36,073 nucleotides of DNA from contig JAJEHG010000031.1 in assembly GCA_022823825.1 (NCBI GenBank), forward strand, positions 1-36,073, in the 5' to 3' direction. The stretch's first letter is position 1; each line of letters starts with the position of its first letter. The stretch comes from Nitrosopumilaceae archaeon. GTDB taxonomy: Archaea > Thermoproteota > Nitrososphaeria > Nitrososphaerales > Nitrosopumilaceae. The notes beneath the pieces were generated by a model. It was not told the DNA's origin. It saw only the letters and a program-made list of their open reading frames with translations, and did no database searches. Shown here piece by piece: positions 1,695 to 29,255 of this stretch. Position numbers and translations under genes: made by a program.

Positions 1695-4600
1695 GTGAAG
1701 CATGCGGCATCCAACCGGCCCGCGGCAGTACTGGCCGCGCTTGCCGTGCTGGCGCTTGCGGCAGCCATAACAGTGGCGCCAGAGCATGCCGAGGCAGCGG
1801 CCGGATCCTTCGTGGAGAGCGTCACGATTGCAAAATATCCCAGCTCCTCTGCCGCCATCGACGCCCTGCTTGCAGGCGAGATAGACATGTACTATGACGA
1901 TATAACGGCCGCGGAAGTCCAAAGGGTAAGCGAAGCCGGACACGACGTATACGAGTCGCCCGGCGGCACCTATTCCATATACGTAAACCCCGTCGACGAT
2001 TTCACGAACGGCTTCAACCCGTTCTCGCAGCAGGGCGCCAGGTACGCGCTGAACTACGTGGTGGACCGGAGCCATGTCGTGGACGGCCTGCTGATGGGAT
2101 CGGGCGCCGAGATGTTCTCCGCCCTGCCCCCCGGCCACCGAGACTATCCACTCATATACAACGAGGTGGAGTCCCTCGGGTTCTCACATGATCTGGACGA
2201 GGCCGACCGGCTGTTTACCGAGGCGCTCACCCCCACCGGCGCCCAAAAGGTCAACGGCGTGTGGCACCACGGGGGCCAGCCCGTCGTGATAAAGATGTTC
2301 ATAAGAAGTGACGACCCGGTGCGCCTCCAGTTCGGGGAGAGGCTGGCATCAGACCTCCAGAGAGTGGGGTTCGGGGTGCAAAAGTCGTACGGGAACCTGC
2401 TTGATGCCGGATCCCGCGTGTATGCCTCTGATCCGGCAGACCAGCAATGGCACATCTACACGGAGGGCTGGGGCAACTCCCGGACAGCCAAGTACGACGA
2501 CCTGCAGATGTCCATATTCTACGCCCCGATATTTGGCAACCTTCCGGGCCAAGGCGAGGAGCACGCGTGGAACTATCAGAATGACACGCTTGACCTGCTC
2601 GCCGCCTACCTGTTCCTCGAACTGTACGATTCGTCTGAGGAGAGGGCCGAGCTGCTGTCTGCCATGAGCCGCGCGGGCGTGACAGAGTCCGTGCGCGTCT
2701 TTCTTGCAGCCGAGCACGAGTCCTATCCGGTAAGGGCCGGTACCGCGGGCGTGGTCAATGCGCCCGGATACGGAATCACGTCAAAGTACACCCCGCTCAA
2801 CGTGCAGCTGCCCGGCGGCGACCCGAGCCTCTCCATAGGGACGAACCACGTGGTGCAGAGCTCCTGGAACCCGGTCGGCGGGTTCACCGACGTGTACAGC
2901 AGCACCGTGTGGTCGCTCTTGCGCGACACGGACCAGGTACGAAACCCGCACAGCGCGGATCTGCTCGACGGCAGAAACGTCCTCGTATCGGTGGAGACGG
3001 AGGGGCCTGACGGCAAGCTCGACGTTCCGCCCGGCGCCATGACATGGGATCCGGAGGAGCATAAATGGGCTGCCGTAGGCCCCGGCGAGCGGGCCACCAG
3101 CAAGGTCGTGTTCGACCTGCGCCTCGGAAACTGGCACCACGGCGTGCCGATGGACCTCAACGACGTGCTGTTCCCGATAACGTTCAACATAGAGCACCAC
3201 GTGATGCACAGTCACGAGGAGATACTCGACTCGGACCCGCACGCCACGCTGCACTCCAGCGGAAGGTTTGTGGCAGTGGAGGTGATCGACGATGACACCA
3301 TCGGGCTGTACGTCGACTACTGGCACTTTGACGAGGATGAGATTGTGGACACGGCAGGCATATGGCCCTTCCTTCCGTGGGAGATGTATTATGCAATGGA
3401 CCGGATGGTCCATGCCGGCGAGGCCGACTGGTACTCGTCCTCTGCGCGGGCGCACAGCGGCAACTGGCTTGACATGCTTGATGCCGGCGACGCGGCGCTT
3501 GCGCGCGGGCACCTGTCCGACCTCAGGAATTCCGAGAACGGCATACCCGACTTTCTGTACAACATGCGGGACGCCGCATACGTAAACGCCAGATATGGCG
3601 CGGCCATGTCGTGGATAGACGACAAGGGGCACATGGTGACAAGCAACGGCCCGTTCTACCTTTCTAATCTGATCGAGCGGGACGCGGACGGCGTCATCGC
3701 CAGCATGGTGCTGAGGCAGTTTGACGATCCCTCGTACCCGCTTGGCGCGGGCCACTGGAGCGCGTTTGCAGACTTTGAGCCGCTGTCCGGAGACGTGGTG
3801 ATAGGCTCCCTCGCCCCCATAACGGGCAACGCGTACAGGTACGGCGAGGAGACGAGGGCCGCGTCCGATCTTGCGGTATCGCACTTTAACGAGTACCTGG
3901 AGCAGCGCGGTGAAAAGTGGTCGATCAAACAGATACACATAGACACGGAGACCGACCCCGCCGCCGCGCTGGCCGGACTCGTGGCGCTTGACGGCCAGAA
4001 CGTCAAGCTTGTGAACGGGCCCGTGATTGACATAATAACGCAGAACGTCCTTGGCTATGCCAACTCCAACGACATGGTGCTGGTCAGCTGCTGCTCGTCG
4101 TCACCCGCAAACGCCATACCCGGCGACGCCCTCTTCAGGATGCTCCCCGACCAGCGCGTGCACGCGGCGGAGATCGTAAGGCTGATGACGGCGCATCCGG
4201 CCCTAAACCTCAAGCACGTGGTGCCGGTCGGAATAGACAACCCGTGGGCCACCGAACTGCTGGGGGCGGCCAAAATCGGCTTTGAGGACAGGGGCGTGAC
4301 ATTCTCGGATATAATCACGTATGACGCAAGCTATGTCCAAGGGGACGGCTTTGTCGCCGGGGCGGAGATGGCCGCGGCGGCCGAGGCCCTTGCCGACGAG
4401 GTGCGGCTTGTCACAGGGCAGAGCAGGGCGCACAACGTGGCAGTGCTGTACGTCGGATTCGGGGAGGGGCCTCTCTTCCTAAAGGCCGCCGCCGCCGCGC
4501 ACGACGTGCTGGATGACGTCAGGTGGTTTGGCGCCGACCAGAACACCGCCTCCCCCAACATATCCGACGATCCCGAGTCGGCCGCGTTTGCAAGCGCCGT

Positions 4601-4943
4601 GTCATTTACAACAGTGCAGCCCTCGGTCCCGGACAACCTGCTCACGAGTGAGATACGCGCGCACCTGGCAGAAATGTCCATTGCGCCCAGCCCGTACTCC
4701 AGCTATGCGTATGACGCGGTCTGGGTTCTCGGGCTCGCAATCCTGGACGCCCAGAGCTCTGATCCGGCCGACGTCATACAACACATCAAGCCGGCTGCAA
4801 TGAGGCACGTGGGGGCCATTGGCTCGACTGAGCTTAACTATAACGGGGATCTGGCATCCGGCATCTACCAGGCGTGGCTGTTCTCAGAGGACGGTCAGTG
4901 GTCAAGGTATTCAGTCGCCGAGCCGTCTTCAACGTGCCGCTGA
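1695..4943 (+). CDS. Secreted SBP_bac_5 plus Peripla_BP_6 fusion, lobe order permuted
   Basis: Secreted or membrane-tethered solute-binding protein of 1082 aa. Residues 1-35 form a signal peptide (KH..., then an Ala/Leu core ending AEAAA). Residues about 38-690 resemble the oligopeptide/nickel-binding family SBP_bac_5 (DppA-like), but the segments are out of order. The part beginning ALLAGEIDM (normally after the middle of the domain), with ARYALNYVVDRSHVV, comes first. The segment normally N-terminal (VVFDLRLGNWHHGVPMDLND, then NGPFYLSN near residue 650) comes last. Residues about 700-1075 are a type 1 periplasmic binding fold like the branched-chain amino-acid receptor LivJ (VVIGSLAPITGNAYRYGEE at its start). 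No ABC permease or ATPase gene is adjacent, and no C-terminal anchor is obvious. GTG was chosen because of the TATA box and the signal peptide. Ligands unknown. Confidence 0.8.
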   Translation: MKHAASNRPAAVLAALAVLALAAAITVAPEHAEAAAGSFVESVTIAKYPSSSAAIDALLAGEIDMYYDDITAAEVQRVSEAGHDVYESPGGTYSIYVNPVDDFTNGFNPFSQQGARYALNYVVDRSHVVDGLLMGSGAEMFSALPPGHRDYPLIYNEVESLGFSHDLDEADRLFTEALTPTGAQKVNGVWHHGGQPVVIKMFIRSDDPVRLQFGERLASDLQRVGFGVQKSYGNLLDAGSRVYASDPADQQWHIYTEGWGNSRTAKYDDLQMSIFYAPIFGNLPGQGEEHAWNYQNDTLDLLAAYLFLELYDSSEERAELLSAMSRAGVTESVRVFLAAEHESYPVRAGTAGVVNAPGYGITSKYTPLNVQLPGGDPSLSIGTNHVVQSSWNPVGGFTDVYSSTVWSLLRDTDQVRNPHSADLLDGRNVLVSVETEGPDGKLDVPPGAMTWDPEEHKWAAVGPGERATSKVVFDLRLGNWHHGVPMDLNDVLFPITFNIEHHVMHSHEEILDSDPHATLHSSGRFVAVEVIDDDTIGLYVDYWHFDEDEIVDTAGIWPFLPWEMYYAMDRMVHAGEADWYSSSARAHSGNWLDMLDAGDAALARGHLSDLRNSENGIPDFLYNMRDAAYVNARYGAAMSWIDDKGHMVTSNGPFYLSNLIERDADGVIASMVLRQFDDPSYPLGAGHWSAFADFEPLSGDVVIGSLAPITGNAYRYGEETRAASDLAVSHFNEYLEQRGEKWSIKQIHIDTETDPAAALAGLVALDGQNVKLVNGPVIDIITQNVLGYANSNDMVLVSCCSSSPANAIPGDALFRMLPDQRVHAAEIVRLMTAHPALNLKHVVPVGIDNPWATELLGAAKIGFEDRGVTFSDIITYDASYVQGDGFVAGAEMAAAAEALADEVRLVTGQSRAHNVAVLYVGFGEGPLFLKAAAAAHDVLDDVRWFGADQNTASPNISDDPESAAFASAVSFTTVQPSVPDNLLTSEIRAHLAEMSIAPSPYSSYAYDAVWVLGLAILDAQSSDPADVIQHIKPAAMRHVGAIGSTELNYNGDLASGIYQAWLFSEDGQWSRYSVAEPSSTCR

Positions 4944-9179: not shown

Positions 9180-10694
9180 CTATCTGCATACCAGAACAGG
9201 AGGGTTGGCCAATGTCAGAATGTCGATGTCTATCCGCATCCACGGGTCCGTAAAGTCCATGTACGTGTCCCGCTCCGTCGTATCTTCAACCATCAGCATC
9301 ACGTCGGCCGTTCCCGCCCTCATGCGGTCAAGGGAGTCCTGCCACGACGCTATGTTTTCGGCCGCCGCAAAGTCGGAGCCTGTCAATGCCGTAAATATGC
9401 TGACGTAGGCGCCGGAGAGCCCTGCAAGGTGTCCCAACTCGTCCACATACTCAAATGGGGCCCATAGCGGAGCATACGCGACCGTAATGGTCGGATTTGT
9501 GTCAAGCCATGCCTGCTCCGCTGCGGTAAAGGACAGCGGGCTTGCTGTCCTGTCTATTATGATTCGCCCCTCGCTTTCCGGCAGGGAGTCAATCAGTTTC
9601 TGCATGATGGAGCCGAGTATCTGGTCGCCTTCCGTATATGCCATCGAGAGCGCATAGTCGTCGCCGAGCGGGCCTGCAAACTCCAAGTCGGCTATGCCGT
9701 TCTGCCTGGCAAGATAGTTCGCCGTTGCAAGCGGATCCAGGTAGGCGTCTGCCGTGCCGTTGTCCACCATGCGGAGCGCATCGAGCGCAGTAGGAACCGA
9801 TATGTAGTTGACAGCAGGCAGGTTGTCGTCCAGCCAGGTCTCTACTGCATATCCTGCCACCGTAACGACCCTGTAGTCTGCCAGATTGGATGCAGTCACG
9901 CCCAAGCTGGTATCCCTTACCAAGATGTCGATGTCTATCCGCAGCCACACATCCGTAAAGTCCATGTACGTGTCCCGCTCTGCCGTATTCTCAATTACGT
10001 ACATCACGTCGGCCGTTCCCGCCCTCATGCTGGCAAGGGCGTCTGCCCACGACCCGATGTTTTCGGCCTCTAAAAACTCGGAGCCGGACAGCGCCGAGAA
10101 CATGGCCGTAAAGGCGCCGGAGACTCCGACCAGATTGCCTGACGGGCCGATATACTCGTAGGGGGGCCAGGACGGATCATACGCGACCGTAATGGTCGGA
10201 TTTGCGTCAAGCCATGCCTGCTCCTCTGCGGTAAAGGACGGCGGGTTTGCCAGCCGCTCGAGTAATGCCTGCCTCTCGTCTGCAGACATGCTGTCAATCA
10301 GTTTCTGCATGATGGAGCCGAGTGTTTGGTCGCCTTCCGTATACGATATTGAGAGCGCATAGTCGTCGCCGAGCGGGCCTGCAGACTGCAGTTCGGCGAG
10401 GCCGTTCTGCTTGGCAAGATAGTTTGCCGTTGCAAGCGGATCCAAGTAGACGTCGGCCATGCCGTTGTTCAGCATGCGGAGCGCCTCGAGCTCATTAGTG
10501 ACCGATATGTAATCGACATCAGGCAGGTTTTCGTCCAGCCAGGTCTCTACCGCATACCCCGCCACCGTAACGACCCTGTAGTCTGACAGGTCAGACGGGC
10601 TTATCGTGGTACCGGCATATGCAACGCCTGACGTGCCGATTGTAACAACAACTGCCAAAATGACAAAGAGTGGTATCGCAACCTTTACCATCAT
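9180..10694 (-). CDS. Secreted tandem SBP_bac_3 protein, two 235-aa units in lobe order II-I-II-I
   Basis: Secreted solute-binding protein of 504 aa. The signal peptide is residues 1-27 (MMVKVAIPLFVILAVVV...GVAYA). It is followed by two nearly identical 235-residue units, seen at the DNA level as a 705-nt offset between matching stretches (for example 9221 and 9926, 9831 and 10536). Each unit starts with lobe II of an SBP_bac_3 (Venus-flytrap) domain (DYRVVTVAGYAVETWLD...) and ends with lobe I (FTAEEQAWLDANPTITVAY...ERDTYMDFTD.W.RIDIDIL). The style resembles sensor domains of BvgS/EvgS kinases, but no transmembrane helix or kinase follows; the protein stops shortly after the last lobe I. The ATG at 10694 (or the adjacent one at 10691) was chosen over 10742 because of the TATA box at 10716-10724. 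Ligand unknown. Confidence 0.8.
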   Translation of the reverse strand: MMVKVAIPLFVILAVVVTIGTSGVAYAGTTISPSDLSDYRVVTVAGYAVETWLDENLPDVDYISVTNELEALRMLNNGMADVYLDPLATANYLAKQNGLAELQSAGPLGDDYALSISYTEGDQTLGSIMQKLIDSMSADERQALLERLANPPSFTAEEQAWLDANPTITVAYDPSWPPYEYIGPSGNLVGVSGAFTAMFSALSGSEFLEAENIGSWADALASMRAGTADVMYVIENTAERDTYMDFTDVWLRIDIDILVRDTSLGVTASNLADYRVVTVAGYAVETWLDDNLPAVNYISVPTALDALRMVDNGTADAYLDPLATANYLARQNGIADLEFAGPLGDDYALSMAYTEGDQILGSIMQKLIDSLPESEGRIIIDRTASPLSFTAAEQAWLDTNPTITVAYAPLWAPFEYVDELGHLAGLSGAYVSIFTALTGSDFAAAENIASWQDSLDRMRAGTADVMLMVEDTTERDTYMDFTDPWMRIDIDILTLANPPVLVCR

Positions 10695-10715
10695 GTGTAG
10701 TTTACGCACAAGTGT

Positions 10716-10724
10716 TAAAAAGTA
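10716..10724 (-). promoter_or_regulatory. TATA-like box of the tandem SBP gene
   Basis: Read on the minus strand the region is tatactttttaac, centred about 26 nt before the ATG at 10694. It overlaps the longer in-frame version of the gene and so argues for the shorter start. Confidence 0.6.
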
Positions 10725-10742
10725 TATCGGCGCAGGTGCCAA

Positions 10743-26474: not shown

Positions 26475-27566
26475 ATGAAAATGAGCAGGGTTTCCGTGGC
26501 CGCAGCAGCGTCTGCCGCCGCGGTCGCAATAATTGCCATTGCCGTCGTGGCCGCTGCGCCGGCGCCGGCCGCAGTTGGCGGCGGGGCGGTGCAGCCGGAC
26601 CAGCGGGTCCTGCGGCTCGGATACTTTCCGGTCGTGGGGCACGCAATCCCGATCGTTGGGATCGAGCAGGGCATATTCTCAAAATACCTGCCGGACGTGC
26701 GCATAGAGCCCAGGGTGTTTGACAGCGGCCCGCAGGTGGTCGAGGCCATGTTTGCCGGCTCGATTGACGTCGCGTACGTGGGGCCGGGGCCCGCGATAAA
26801 CGCATTCCTGAACTCGGACGAGTCCGATGCCATACGCATACTGTCGGGCGCCGCAAGCGGCGGGACGAGCTTTGTAATGCATCCGGATGCCGCGTCGCCC
26901 GAGTTTGACTTTGCCCACAAGAGGATTGCCGCCCCCCAGATTGGCAACACGCAGGACGTGTCGCTGCGCCACTACATGGAGCAGCGCGGGCTGCAGGCCT
27001 CCGACCGCGGTGGGAGCGTCGTCGTCTACAACATACCGAACCCGGACATAGTGACCCTGTTTGTAAAGGGCGAGATAGACGGCGCGTGGGTCTCCGAGCC
27101 GTGGGCCACCATCCTTGCCGAGGAGCACGGCGGCGTCAGGCTGTTCTACGAGGAGGAGATGTGGCCCGGAGGCAAGTTTGCAACCGTCCTGCTGATTGCC
27201 GGAGAGTCGTACGTGCAGGAGAACCGCGACATCGTGGACGGGTGGCTCGGGGCCCACGAGGAGGCGGCAAAAGTCATAAACGCTGACAGGGACGCGGCGG
27301 GTGTGATGTTCAATGACTTCCTGCTGGATCACTTTGGGCAGCAGCTTGACCCCGGCGTGGTCCGGGAGGCCGTGTACAACACGGAGGTGACCGCAGACCC
27401 CCTGAGCGGCACCGTGTACGAGTTTGCGGAGCGCGCCGACCGGCTGGGGTACATGGGGCGCGGCAGCTACGACCTGTCGGGCCTGTTCTTTTCGCTTGAC
27501 GGGGGGGACTATGGCGAAGGTACCGGCCATGGTGACGGCGACGGCGACGAAAGAGGAACGGGGTGA
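26475..27566 (+). CDS. ABC importer substrate-binding protein (SsuA/TauA/NMT1-like)
   Basis: Secreted or membrane-anchored protein of 363 aa with an N-terminal hydrophobic segment (residues 7-33). It belongs to the nitrate/sulfonate/taurine/thiamine-precursor binding group: LRLGYFPVVGHAIPIVGIEQGIF at the start of the mature part, AMFAGSIDVAYVGPGPAINAF, and PDIVTLFVKGEIDGAWVSEPWA. The substrate cannot be read from the sequence; aliphatic sulfonates fit the binding-protein style and the methionine genes downstream. The C-terminal 20 residues are a Gly/Asp-rich tail (HGDGDGDERGTG). The stop overlaps the GTG start of the ATPase gene as GTGA. Confidence 0.85.
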   Translation: MKMSRVSVAAAASAAAVAIIAIAVVAAAPAPAAVGGGAVQPDQRVLRLGYFPVVGHAIPIVGIEQGIFSKYLPDVRIEPRVFDSGPQVVEAMFAGSIDVAYVGPGPAINAFLNSDESDAIRILSGAASGGTSFVMHPDAASPEFDFAHKRIAAPQIGNTQDVSLRHYMEQRGLQASDRGGSVVVYNIPNPDIVTLFVKGEIDGAWVSEPWATILAEEHGGVRLFYEEEMWPGGKFATVLLIAGESYVQENRDIVDGWLGAHEEAAKVINADRDAAGVMFNDFLLDHFGQQLDPGVVREAVYNTEVTADPLSGTVYEFAERADRLGYMGRGSYDLSGLFFSLDGGDYGEGTGHGDGDGDERGTG

Positions 27567-28456
27567 CCACAGTGGCGAAATTGGAGGCAAGGGGCATCAC
27601 AAAATACTTTGAGCACGAGTCGCACCGCCTGCAGGCGCTCGGGGGCGTGAACCTCAAGGTAGAGTCCGGCGACTTTGTGTGCTTGGTGGGGCCGTCCGGA
27701 TGCGGCAAGTCCACGTTTCTGCGGATAGTGGCCGGGCTTGAAAAGCCCGACGGCGGGCAGATACTGTTTGACGGGCGCCCCGTGACGGAGACGGGCCCCA
27801 CCCGAATCATGGTGTTCCAGGAGGGCGCGCTGTTCCCGTGGCTTACGGTCCGCGACAACGTAGAGTTCGGGCTCAAGGTATCCGGGGTGCCGCGCGAAAA
27901 GAGGGCCGAGATATCGGAGCGGTACCTGGACATGATGCAGCTTACAAAGTTTGCCGGCTCCTACACGCACCAGCTCTCCACGGGCATGAAGCAGAGGGTG
28001 GCAATTGCAAGGGCCCTCGTGATGGATCCCGACGTGCTGCTGATGGACGAGCCGTTTGCGGCGCTTGACGCCCAGACCAGGGACCTGCTGCTGGTGGAGA
28101 CCCAGCTGATATGGGCCAGGACCAAAAAGACGATCATGTTCGTGACGCACAACGTGGCCGAGGCGGCGGTGCTCGGCACAAAGGTGGCGGTCTTCAGCAA
28201 CCGCCCCTCAGTGGTCAAGCGGGAGATTCCAAACGACTTTCCAAGGCCCAGGGTTCCGGACGACAAGGAGCTGATCGACTTTCAGCACGAGATACTGCGG
28301 GAGCTGAGGCCCGAGGTAAGGAAGGAAGATGATGTGGGCGCGGCGGCGGGCGCGGCGGCCGAAGAGACCACGGACGCGGGCGCGGCGAGTGCGGGTAAGG
28401 AAGACGACGCGGACGCAGGGGAGAAAGACAAGAAGAAAGAGGGGAGGACGCAGTAA
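27563..28456 (+). CDS. ABC importer ATPase (SsuB/TauB-like)
   Basis: Cytoplasmic ATPase of 297 aa. All ABC motifs are intact: Walker A GPSGCGKST (43-51), Q-loop Gln86 (VFQEGALFPW), signature LSTGMKQR (138-145), Walker B VLLMDEP (158-164) and switch His196 (FVTHNVAEA). The form is typical of nitrate/sulfonate/taurine importers. After the family-length core (about 255 aa) comes a low-complexity Ala/Glu/Asp/Lys tail of about 42 residues. The GTG start overlaps the preceding stop, and the permease gene starts 2 nt after its stop, so the three subunits are made from one operon. Confidence 0.93.
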   Translation: MTTVAKLEARGITKYFEHESHRLQALGGVNLKVESGDFVCLVGPSGCGKSTFLRIVAGLEKPDGGQILFDGRPVTETGPTRIMVFQEGALFPWLTVRDNVEFGLKVSGVPREKRAEISERYLDMMQLTKFAGSYTHQLSTGMKQRVAIARALVMDPDVLLMDEPFAALDAQTRDLLLVETQLIWARTKKTIMFVTHNVAEAAVLGTKVAVFSNRPSVVKREIPNDFPRPRVPDDKELIDFQHEILRELRPEVRKEDDVGAAAGAAAEETTDAGAASAGKEDDADAGEKDKKKEGRTQ

Positions 28457-28457
28457 G

Positions 28458-29255
28458 ATGTCGCTATCAGCAGCAACAGCATCATCATCATCATCAAGAA
28501 AGCGCAGCTATGCGCCGCACAAGATAGCATTCTACATAGGACTGGTGGCAGTCTGGCAGCTTGTGGCGATGTCCGGCGTGTGGCCCAGCAACATATTCCC
28601 GTCCCCCTACGAGGTGGGCGAGGATCTGGTGTACGGGGCCTTGGACGGCAGCCTGCTGCACGGGTTTGCCACGAGCATGTGGAGGCTTGCGGTGGGCCTC
28701 TCCATATCGATAGCAGGCGGCATCGCTCTGGGAATAATCATGGCCCGCAGGGAGGCGTTCAACCAGACGGTGGGCTCCCTGGTACTCGGGCTGCAGTCCA
28801 TTCCGTCCATCGCGTGGGTCCCGCTCGGCATACTGTGGTTCGGGCTGACGGACGCCGGGATAATATTCGTGATTGCGATAGGAGCCGTGTTTGCAGTCAC
28901 GATAAACACGTATACCGGCGTCAAGAACATACAGCCCCACTATATCGAGGCCGCGCGCAACATGGGGGCCACCGGGGGCAGGCTGATAACCGACGTGCTC
29001 ATACCCGCCGCGTTCCCGTACATGATATCTGGGTTCAAGCAGGGCTGGGCGTTTGCATGGAGGGGCGTCATAGGCGCCGAATTGCTGTTCTCGTACCTGG
29101 GGCTGGGGTACATGCTGTACGTGGGCAGGTCGCTCAACGACATCTCGCAGATAATAGCGGTCATGCTGGTGATAATGGCAACGGGGCTGGCCGTCGACGC
29201 CGTGCTGTTCAAAAAGCTGGAGCTCAAGGTGATGTCCAGGTGGGGACTCAGGTGA
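28458..29255 (+). CDS. ABC importer permease (SsuC/TauC-like)
   Basis: Integral membrane protein of 265 aa with about six hydrophobic segments. The cytoplasmic EAA loop that contacts the ATPase is visible (EAARNMGATGGRLITDVLIPAAFP, about 165-188 in outline), followed by GFKQGWAFAWRGVIGAELL, typical of the sulfonate/taurine/nitrate permeases. The ATG at 28458 was chosen because it follows the ATPase stop by 1 nt; a longer frame lies within that gene. Residues 2-14 are a Ser/Ala run encoded partly by a (ATC)n repeat at 28480-28497, absent from normal homologues. Confidence 0.9.
   Translation: MSLSAATASSSSSRKRSYAPHKIAFYIGLVAVWQLVAMSGVWPSNIFPSPYEVGEDLVYGALDGSLLHGFATSMWRLAVGLSISIAGGIALGIIMARREAFNQTVGSLVLGLQSIPSIAWVPLGILWFGLTDAGIIFVIAIGAVFAVTINTYTGVKNIQPHYIEAARNMGATGGRLITDVLIPAAFPYMISGFKQGWAFAWRGVIGAELLFSYLGLGYMLYVGRSLNDISQIIAVMLVIMATGLAVDAVLFKKLELKVMSRWGLR

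Follow-up and report, generated by a model that had tools for sequence, protein, structure and literature searches.

A predicted circularly permuted SBP_bac_5 domain fused to a type 1 receptor in a Nitrosopumilaceae archaeon, and its rotated relatives

Locus and domain layout

The subject of this study is a gene at positions 1695 to 4943 of a DNA stretch from a Nitrosopumilaceae archaeon, probably an ammonia-oxidizing one, as the neighbouring genes and the names attached to homologues (Nitrosarchaeum, Nitrosopumilus) suggest (assembly GCA_022823825.1, contig JAJEHG010000031.1, positions 1 to 36,073); the whole stretch, 36,073 nucleotides long, is referred to here as the window. In the encoded protein, a peptide-type substrate-binding protein (SBP) domain of the SBP_bac_5 family, with its two halves in swapped order, is followed by a type 1 receptor domain. 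The features are listed below.

1695..4943, + strand: gene for the permuted SBP_bac_5/type 1 SBP fusion, 1082 amino acids, GTG start (open frame and translation; homologues of like build)
1695..1796, + strand: signal peptide, residues 1-34 (hydrophobic stretch and AEA end; limits judged by eye, without a predictor)
1806..2804, + strand: canonical C-terminal half of the SBP_bac_5 domain, now first, residues 38-370
2790..2858, + strand: junction at which the former C-terminus meets the former N-terminus, residues 366-388 (from alignments; limits approximate)
2805..3770, + strand: canonical N-terminal half, now second, residues 371-692
3795..4871, + strand: type 1 (LivJ-like) receptor domain, residues 701-1059 (PF01094, PF13458)
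4926..4943, + strand: C-terminal tail ending in STCR, with stop (a Cys-Arg end is also found on other probably exported proteins of the genome)

Pfam matched the SBP_bac_5 profile (PF00496) to residues 41-265, corresponding to profile positions 149-352 (76 bits; curated cut-off 32.4), and residues 701-1059 to both PF01094 (ANF_receptor, 58.9 bits; cut-off 25.4) and PF13458 (Peripla_BP_6, 54.1 bits; cut-off 31.7). The latter two matches bear out the claim of a first-pass annotation, made from the sequence alone, that a LivJ-like type 1 receptor lies in the same chain. Because the type 1 match begins about nine residues past the end of the SBP_bac_5 domain, the two clam-like domains must sit close together. 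Homologues P0003-P0018 resemble the window protein in length and build, with identities of 90-44%.

Evidence for circular permutation

The same annotation had claimed that the segments of a DppA-like domain stand here in reversed order. When the protein was compared with the PDB by phmmer, Thermococcus kodakarensis OppA (TkOppA; 7fi3_A) was indeed matched in two stretches whose order is reversed: residues 388-658 of the window protein correspond to 20-290 of the chain, and residues 94-285 to 390-591. Rewriting the query as residues 371-692 followed by 38-370 merged these into a single collinear stretch, 18-570 on 20-591; the total rose from 100 bits for the two stretches to 107, and the gain thus lies in collinearity, the rise in score being small. 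After the same rotation the Pfam match began at profile position 110 instead of 149 (81.7 versus 77.9 bits).

Local alignments of the separate halves gave a consistent picture. Residues 371-692 scored 196 against the N-terminal part of TkOppA and 35 against the rest, and residues 38-370 scored 221 against the C-terminal part and 33 against the other, with maxima of 64 and 60 in the shuffle controls (100 per half). The whole domain scored 221 against TkOppA as written, rotation to a start at residues 293-383 raised this to 401, 100 shuffles reached at most 62, and five relatives also scored higher once rotated (824 to 1348, 336 to 592, 336 to 635, 334 to 612 and 912 to 1300). In the relative P0147 the joint shows in the alignment of TkOppA residue 721 with residue 429 and of TkOppA residue 4 with residue 433. 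Given the OppA topology, the new cut presumably sits close to the point where the chain passes from lobe I into lobe II.

Structure prediction, which the first-pass annotation had proposed as a check, agreed with these alignments. The AlphaFold model of the 655-residue domain was confident (predicted local distance difference test score, pLDDT, 93.2; predicted template modelling score, pTM, 0.89); its first half matches the C-terminal half of solved OppA, AppA and DppA, and the second half, modelled by itself, matches the N-terminal half of solved SBPs. The permuted domain is thus predicted to adopt the two-lobed type II fold seen in OppA and DppA. The canonical succession of N half and then C half is absent, and because the order is reversed we file the window protein as a permuted variant and not as a typical member of cluster C.

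Two observations weigh against this assignment: residues 371-692 on their own matched no Pfam family up to an E value of 10, and the fold is a predicted one whose halves were compared with solved SBPs one at a time. Sequence comparison, the rotated query and the predicted structure nevertheless all support the circular permutation that had been claimed, and we regard it as confirmed at the level of sequence that residues 38-692 form one SBP_bac_5 (OppA/DppA-type, cluster C) domain with its halves swapped and its old termini joined. A circularly permuted cluster C SBP whose new C-terminus continues into a type 1 SBP domain is the best explanation of the whole protein, with a probability of about 0.88.

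Spread of the permuted family

A protein search scored 7996 candidates and gave 232 hits. Among the best 120 of these, all 119 homologues besides the window protein itself aligned with it in one stretch and in the same order, three of them partially; a few of them carry a source name (Nitrosarchaeum, Nitrosopumilus, Nitrososphaera, Caldarchaeum or Ignicoccus), and the named relatives are annotated merely as "ABC transporter substrate-binding protein" or the like. Within the window's own family, 77 of 81 genomes have a match with an E value no worse than 1e-30, and the permuted domain is present in 76 (counted from rows). A match that spans the permuted as well as the type 1 part occurs in 3 of the 81 (twice in G000, and in G199 and G211), and the type 1 fusion is therefore rare in this family. 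All five SBP_bac_5 matches in the window's own genome start at profile positions 144-149 and look permuted.

The genomes of GTDB were scanned with a narrower, Thermococcales-centred alignment (A3), the broad alignment having no stretch conserved enough, and the scan consequently leans to Thermococcales-like members. It yielded 69 loci with 68 matching open reading frames (ORFs) of at least 250 amino acids (L099 and L101 had no ORF in the classification and L073 had two): 56 permuted, 7 canonical, 4 with the C half only and 1 with the N half only. This first classification was coarse, in that L042 and L045, entered as permuted, proved to be cut near residue 250 (TkOppA numbering), and L089, entered as canonical, near residue 655. 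The records with permuted ORFs include Thermococcus, Geoglobus, Altiarchaeales, Methanodesulfokora, Desulfurococcales, Thermoplasmata, Scotarchaeum, Geothermarchaeota, Spirochaetes, Atribacterota, Bipolaricaulota, Thermotogae, Bacillota, Fusobacteriaceae and Planctomycetota, among others; all seven canonical-labelled ORFs come from Thermococcus, Thermococci or Thermococcaceae records. A comparison of TkOppA with a plasmid collection gave no match.

For 43 of the 56 permuted ORFs and 4 of the 7 canonical ones, a DppB or DppC homologue (E value 1e-10) lies no more than 3 kb away, the usual gene order being SBP, DppB, DppC, DppD. At nine of the 13 permuted loci without such a neighbour, the available stretch breaks off inside the locus or at most 0.8 kb from it, which leaves four away from an end (L043, L055, L078 and L083). 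Many permuted members therefore look like ordinary peptide-transporter receptors. The first-pass annotation is to be corrected on this point: the permutation is common to the relatives, many of which are encoded beside DppB/DppC, and is not peculiar to the window protein. The permutation is the normal state of the family, shared among its members, and is probably old.

Two further groups of proteins were noted in passing. At L044 (4402-8667), L076 (4531-8493) and L082 (5371-8511), permuted SBPs carry about 210-560 extra residues ahead of the domain, which may be further domains or simply frames drawn too long. In the phylum, among the matches listed, there is also a second class of PF00496 matches that start at profile positions 139-149, score 124-154 bits and lie in frames of 675-756 amino acids (G128:C1:771577, G088:C1:1146845, G181:C2:1179762, G171:C1:579735, G072:C3:209818, G142:C1:119454, G185:C117:4336, G077:C36:1413, G075:C23:10443 and G155:C1:137155); these are perhaps further permuted SBPs of another subfamily.

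Function and transporter context

To judge from the model and the relatives, the permuted domain would fold into the usual two-lobed clam; peptides would bind in its cleft and then pass to a DppBC permease, and the type 1 domain would capture another ligand, possibly an amino acid, destined for permeases of the LivHM type whose genes lie elsewhere. The fusion may serve two-ligand capture or sensing, as the first-pass annotation proposed, and we consider it at least as likely that it supplies permeases from other parts of the genome. Two points count against the transport part of this proposal: peptide binding is carried over by analogy from TkOppA and the operon context, and no permease gene adjoins the window gene. 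The absence of adjacent ABC (ATP-binding cassette) subunits, already noted in the first-pass annotation, holds near the gene, the sole Dpp-like match in the window (27572-28276) lying in an NMT1-type transporter. In the genome itself, C12 encodes a PF00528 pair taken for DppB/DppC, C45 and C39 encode oligo_HPY ATPases, and C12 and C57 hold two PF02653 (LivHM-like) pairs; all of these lie on contigs other than that of the window gene.

Since the window gene has no permease neighbour, a role outside transport is possible: the protein, equally permuted and two-headed, might be a surface receptor or scavenger that feeds no ABC permease. Such a role would be in keeping with the joining of permuted, type 1 and Cache domains in the homologue P0019, with the two-domain type 1 proteins of the same genome and with a C-terminus in which no transmembrane anchor is visible by eye. 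The permease parts encoded in the same genome and the DppB/DppC genes beside most permuted relatives speak for transport instead, and we regard the non-transport alternative as possible yet rather doubtful.

Two other transporter loci deserve mention. At L023 (8006-14854) the DppB/DppC-like pair of this genome adjoins a Cache-domain protein on the other strand that ends in YCRG, no SBP being recognised beside the pair. In the window at 26475-29255 (+), an NMT1_2 binding protein, an ABC ATPase and a permease stand in a row and form a separate small-molecule importer.

Several cut sites in Thermococcales

In orthologous dpp operons of Thermococcales, the domain is cut at about residues 0, 250, 315, 618 and 655 in TkOppA numbering. 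The cut near 250 is found in P0163 (T. celericrescens), L042 and L045, that near 618 in L138, and that near 655 in L089, on which single gene this form rests; L137 is a tandem of permuted copies broken off by a contig end. G001 is the Thermococcus genome that contains L080; of the 61 genomes searched from its family, 59 gave a match. With rows grouped by hand, the canonical order accounts for 25 genes in 18 genomes, the 315 cut for 24 genes in 23, the 250 cut for 16 genes in 16 and the 618 cut for 5 genes in 5 (L174 and L176 being counted here despite irregular ends); there are also one gene cut at 651 and one tandem, and the remaining rows are 18 partial gene pieces, 2 split and 2 unclassed. 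DppB, DppC and DppD lie downstream of the 618-cut forms in G047, G057, G060 and G064 and of the 250-cut form in G044, on contigs of 1.8-2.2 Mb, and L175 (G036, 1.87-Mb contig) is a 2077-residue frame with two permuted copies.

The ends of these genes are in several cases shared across forms. The signal peptides of L166 (cut 618) and L173 (cut 250) agree in 24 of 26 residues, those of L161 (canonical) and L089 (cut 655) in 21 of 26; L166 and L168 have a threonine-rich stalk in common and nearly identical membrane tails, and a CGP-type tail is common to L161, L165 and L089. DppD is 82-96% identical across the 12 Thermococcales operons compared, regardless of the form of the SBP, and the DppB of L181 (cut 618) has 81-83% identity with those of L183, L042 and L045 (cut 250). 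The shared gene ends and the conserved DppD and DppB together point to repeated rotation within one orthologous dpp locus, in which the ends are kept while the middle rotates. Less favourable to this view are the signal peptides of other Thermococcus pairs, equal in 11-21 of 26 residues, and those of P0147 and P0153 (cut 315), which share just 4-8 of 26 with any other.

As the likely route, we propose that the mature domain would be duplicated in tandem between signal peptide and anchor, and that loss of the outer two parts by trimming would then leave a rotated single domain; in Thermococcales, duplication and trimming would have been repeated, once back to the canonical order. In favour of this route are the double-copy frame of L175, the near-equal signal peptides of differently cut forms and the conserved DppD.

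Polarity of the rotations

Trees were built from an alignment of 694 columns, in which rotated sequences were combined with canonical SBP outgroups (E. coli OppA, DppA, GsiB and NikA and proteins of the searched genomes). FastTree was run on 133 rows (108 family, 25 outgroup), a quick IQ-TREE search under LG+C20 on 95 rows (82 and 13), a careful search under LG+G4 on 43 rows (36 and 7), and careful searches under LG+G4 and LG+C20 on 33 rows (27 and 6), with the long P0172/P0175 branch left out. All placed the canonical TkOppA-like proteins inside the permuted family, in a Thermococcales/Geoglobus clade supported at 100/100 in the 43- and 33-row trees. Because the rooted trees nest TkOppA in this way, its canonical order looks regained from a permuted ancestor.

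The opposite polarity, in which the canonical order of TkOppA is ancestral in Thermococcales and all permuted forms stem from one later event, would need fewer reversals, and most other SBP_bac_5 matches in the genomes searched for outgroups span the profile from its first positions, i.e., are canonical. The outgroup-rooted trees nevertheless put the canonical clade among permuted Thermococcales/Geoglobus proteins, and forcing all permuted rows into one clade was rejected in the 43- and 33-row trees (P values of the approximately unbiased test 0.0043, 0.0138 and 0.00143); we consider an ancestral canonical order unlikely. The outgroup branch is long, with the attendant long-branch warning, and the tested clade was picked after the first tree had been seen, for which reasons we call the regained order of TkOppA likely and go no further.

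The number of changes of form does not depend on the root: there are four within the family on the 95-row tree and six on a 56-row tree, four being the least possible with five forms. The 56-row tree is rooted on permuted rows and hence is no test of polarity. Since it has six changes where four suffice, and some of its splits are weak (88-92), the 250 and 618 cuts may each have arisen once or twice. The SBP domain of the Thermococcales dpp operon would thus seem, with fair probability, to behave as a circular one: an old cut near 315, common to archaea and bacteria (and to 76 of the 81 genomes of the window's own family), would have been followed by at least four re-cuts of the mature domain, three of them near 250, 618 and 655 and one restoring the canonical start, all between signal peptide and threonine-rich anchor and by tandem duplication and trimming.

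The tandems at L137 and L175 raise the question whether the N-terminal and middle parts of the window protein are left over from two SBP copies, either separate or in an A-B-A or truncated-tandem arrangement; this is highly improbable, because each half is present once only in the window protein (phmmer against the PDB, homologue alignments), its 655 residues yield one confident model, and relatives with frames of about 690-840 amino acids have the same single rotated domain. A truncated tandem, named in the first-pass annotation as a finding that would overturn its proposal, was thus not encountered; among homologues, in which it suggested looking for a normal lobe I or an A-B-A layout, the 119 listed ones align in the order of the window protein, and tandems were seen in Thermococcus-family genomes only. 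Readings as a truncated tandem or as an unrelated domain had been tried as candidates and were ruled out by the reversed match to 7fi3_A, the confident model and the shuffle-controlled rotation scan.

Other fused receptors and Cys-Arg ends

Fused or doubled receptors recur among the sequences examined. L028 (4326-6863) and L029 (3994-6369), from the same genome as the window, each have two type 1 receptor stretches per chain, which suggests a habit of joining receptors. Four type 1 matches lie in one 1690-residue frame at G204:C1:2018232-2023070; the 1763-residue P0019 has further domains besides those named above, and the 2102-residue frame of L185 (G199:C104) combines a permuted SBP with two type 1 matches. 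In the window at 9180-10742 (-), a 520-residue protein that ends in VCR contains two SBP_bac_3 stretches and is perhaps another doubled binding protein.

A Cys-Arg end, with at most one residue more, was found in 9 of the 104 ORFs of at least 150 amino acids in the window and the examined stretches of its genome: window 4926-4943 and 9180-10742 (-), L023 3-665 and 11477-14854, L025 6304-8421 and 8481-10595, L026 6143-9421, and the L028 and L029 genes. These proteins are probably exported and belong to unlike families (SBP_bac_5, SBP_bac_3, type 1, Cache). Such an end also occurs in 19 of the 22 homologues P0003-P0024 (P0016 has CRR) and, by eye, in none of P0025-P0121. The Cys-Arg end may serve this lineage as a tag for sorting or anchoring, in place of a membrane anchor.

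Comparison with known systems

A permuted transporter receptor family is near-universal in the 81 genomes of the window's own family. Pfam reports half of such a protein only, and the best solved homologue, TkOppA, has a chain order unlike that of the window's relatives. For engineering, the family shows which termini evolution tolerates on an OppA-type scaffold. Most known natural circular permutations are, to our knowledge, isolated events, each confined to one family. Thermococcales, with several cut forms, one-frame tandems and a conserved operon, offer material on how permutations arise and whether they are reversible.

A literature search, with most subscription papers outside its reach, found no earlier report of a permuted cluster C SBP. 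A permuted SBP as such is already known: TpMglB-2 of Treponema pallidum is a naturally permuted cluster B SBP that still binds its ligand, for which the name "Type Ic/Cluster Bc" was proposed (PMC4990184). TpMglB-2 has a type I/cluster B sugar-binding fold, whereas the window domain, which matches PF00496 and cluster C structures, is of the cluster C (type II) peptide type and belongs to a family with several cut sites. Compared with TpMglB-2, the new element here is a permuted cluster C domain with an unusual evolutionary history.

The fold of both halves is that of E. coli DppA and B. subtilis AppA (1dpp, 1xoc), from which the window domain differs in the order of the halves, the aligned parts being 14-18% identical. 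The C-terminal domain (residues ~701-1059) resembles LivJ/LivK-type proteins (PF13458, PRK15404) but is fused behind a permuted type 2 domain, and it reaches 29 bits with PRK15404 against a cut-off of 477. The closest solved relative of both halves is T. kodakarensis OppA (7fi3), whose relatives have dpp operons orthologous to those of the permuted Thermococcus forms; it has the canonical order, unlike the rotated window domain, to which a type 1 domain is attached.

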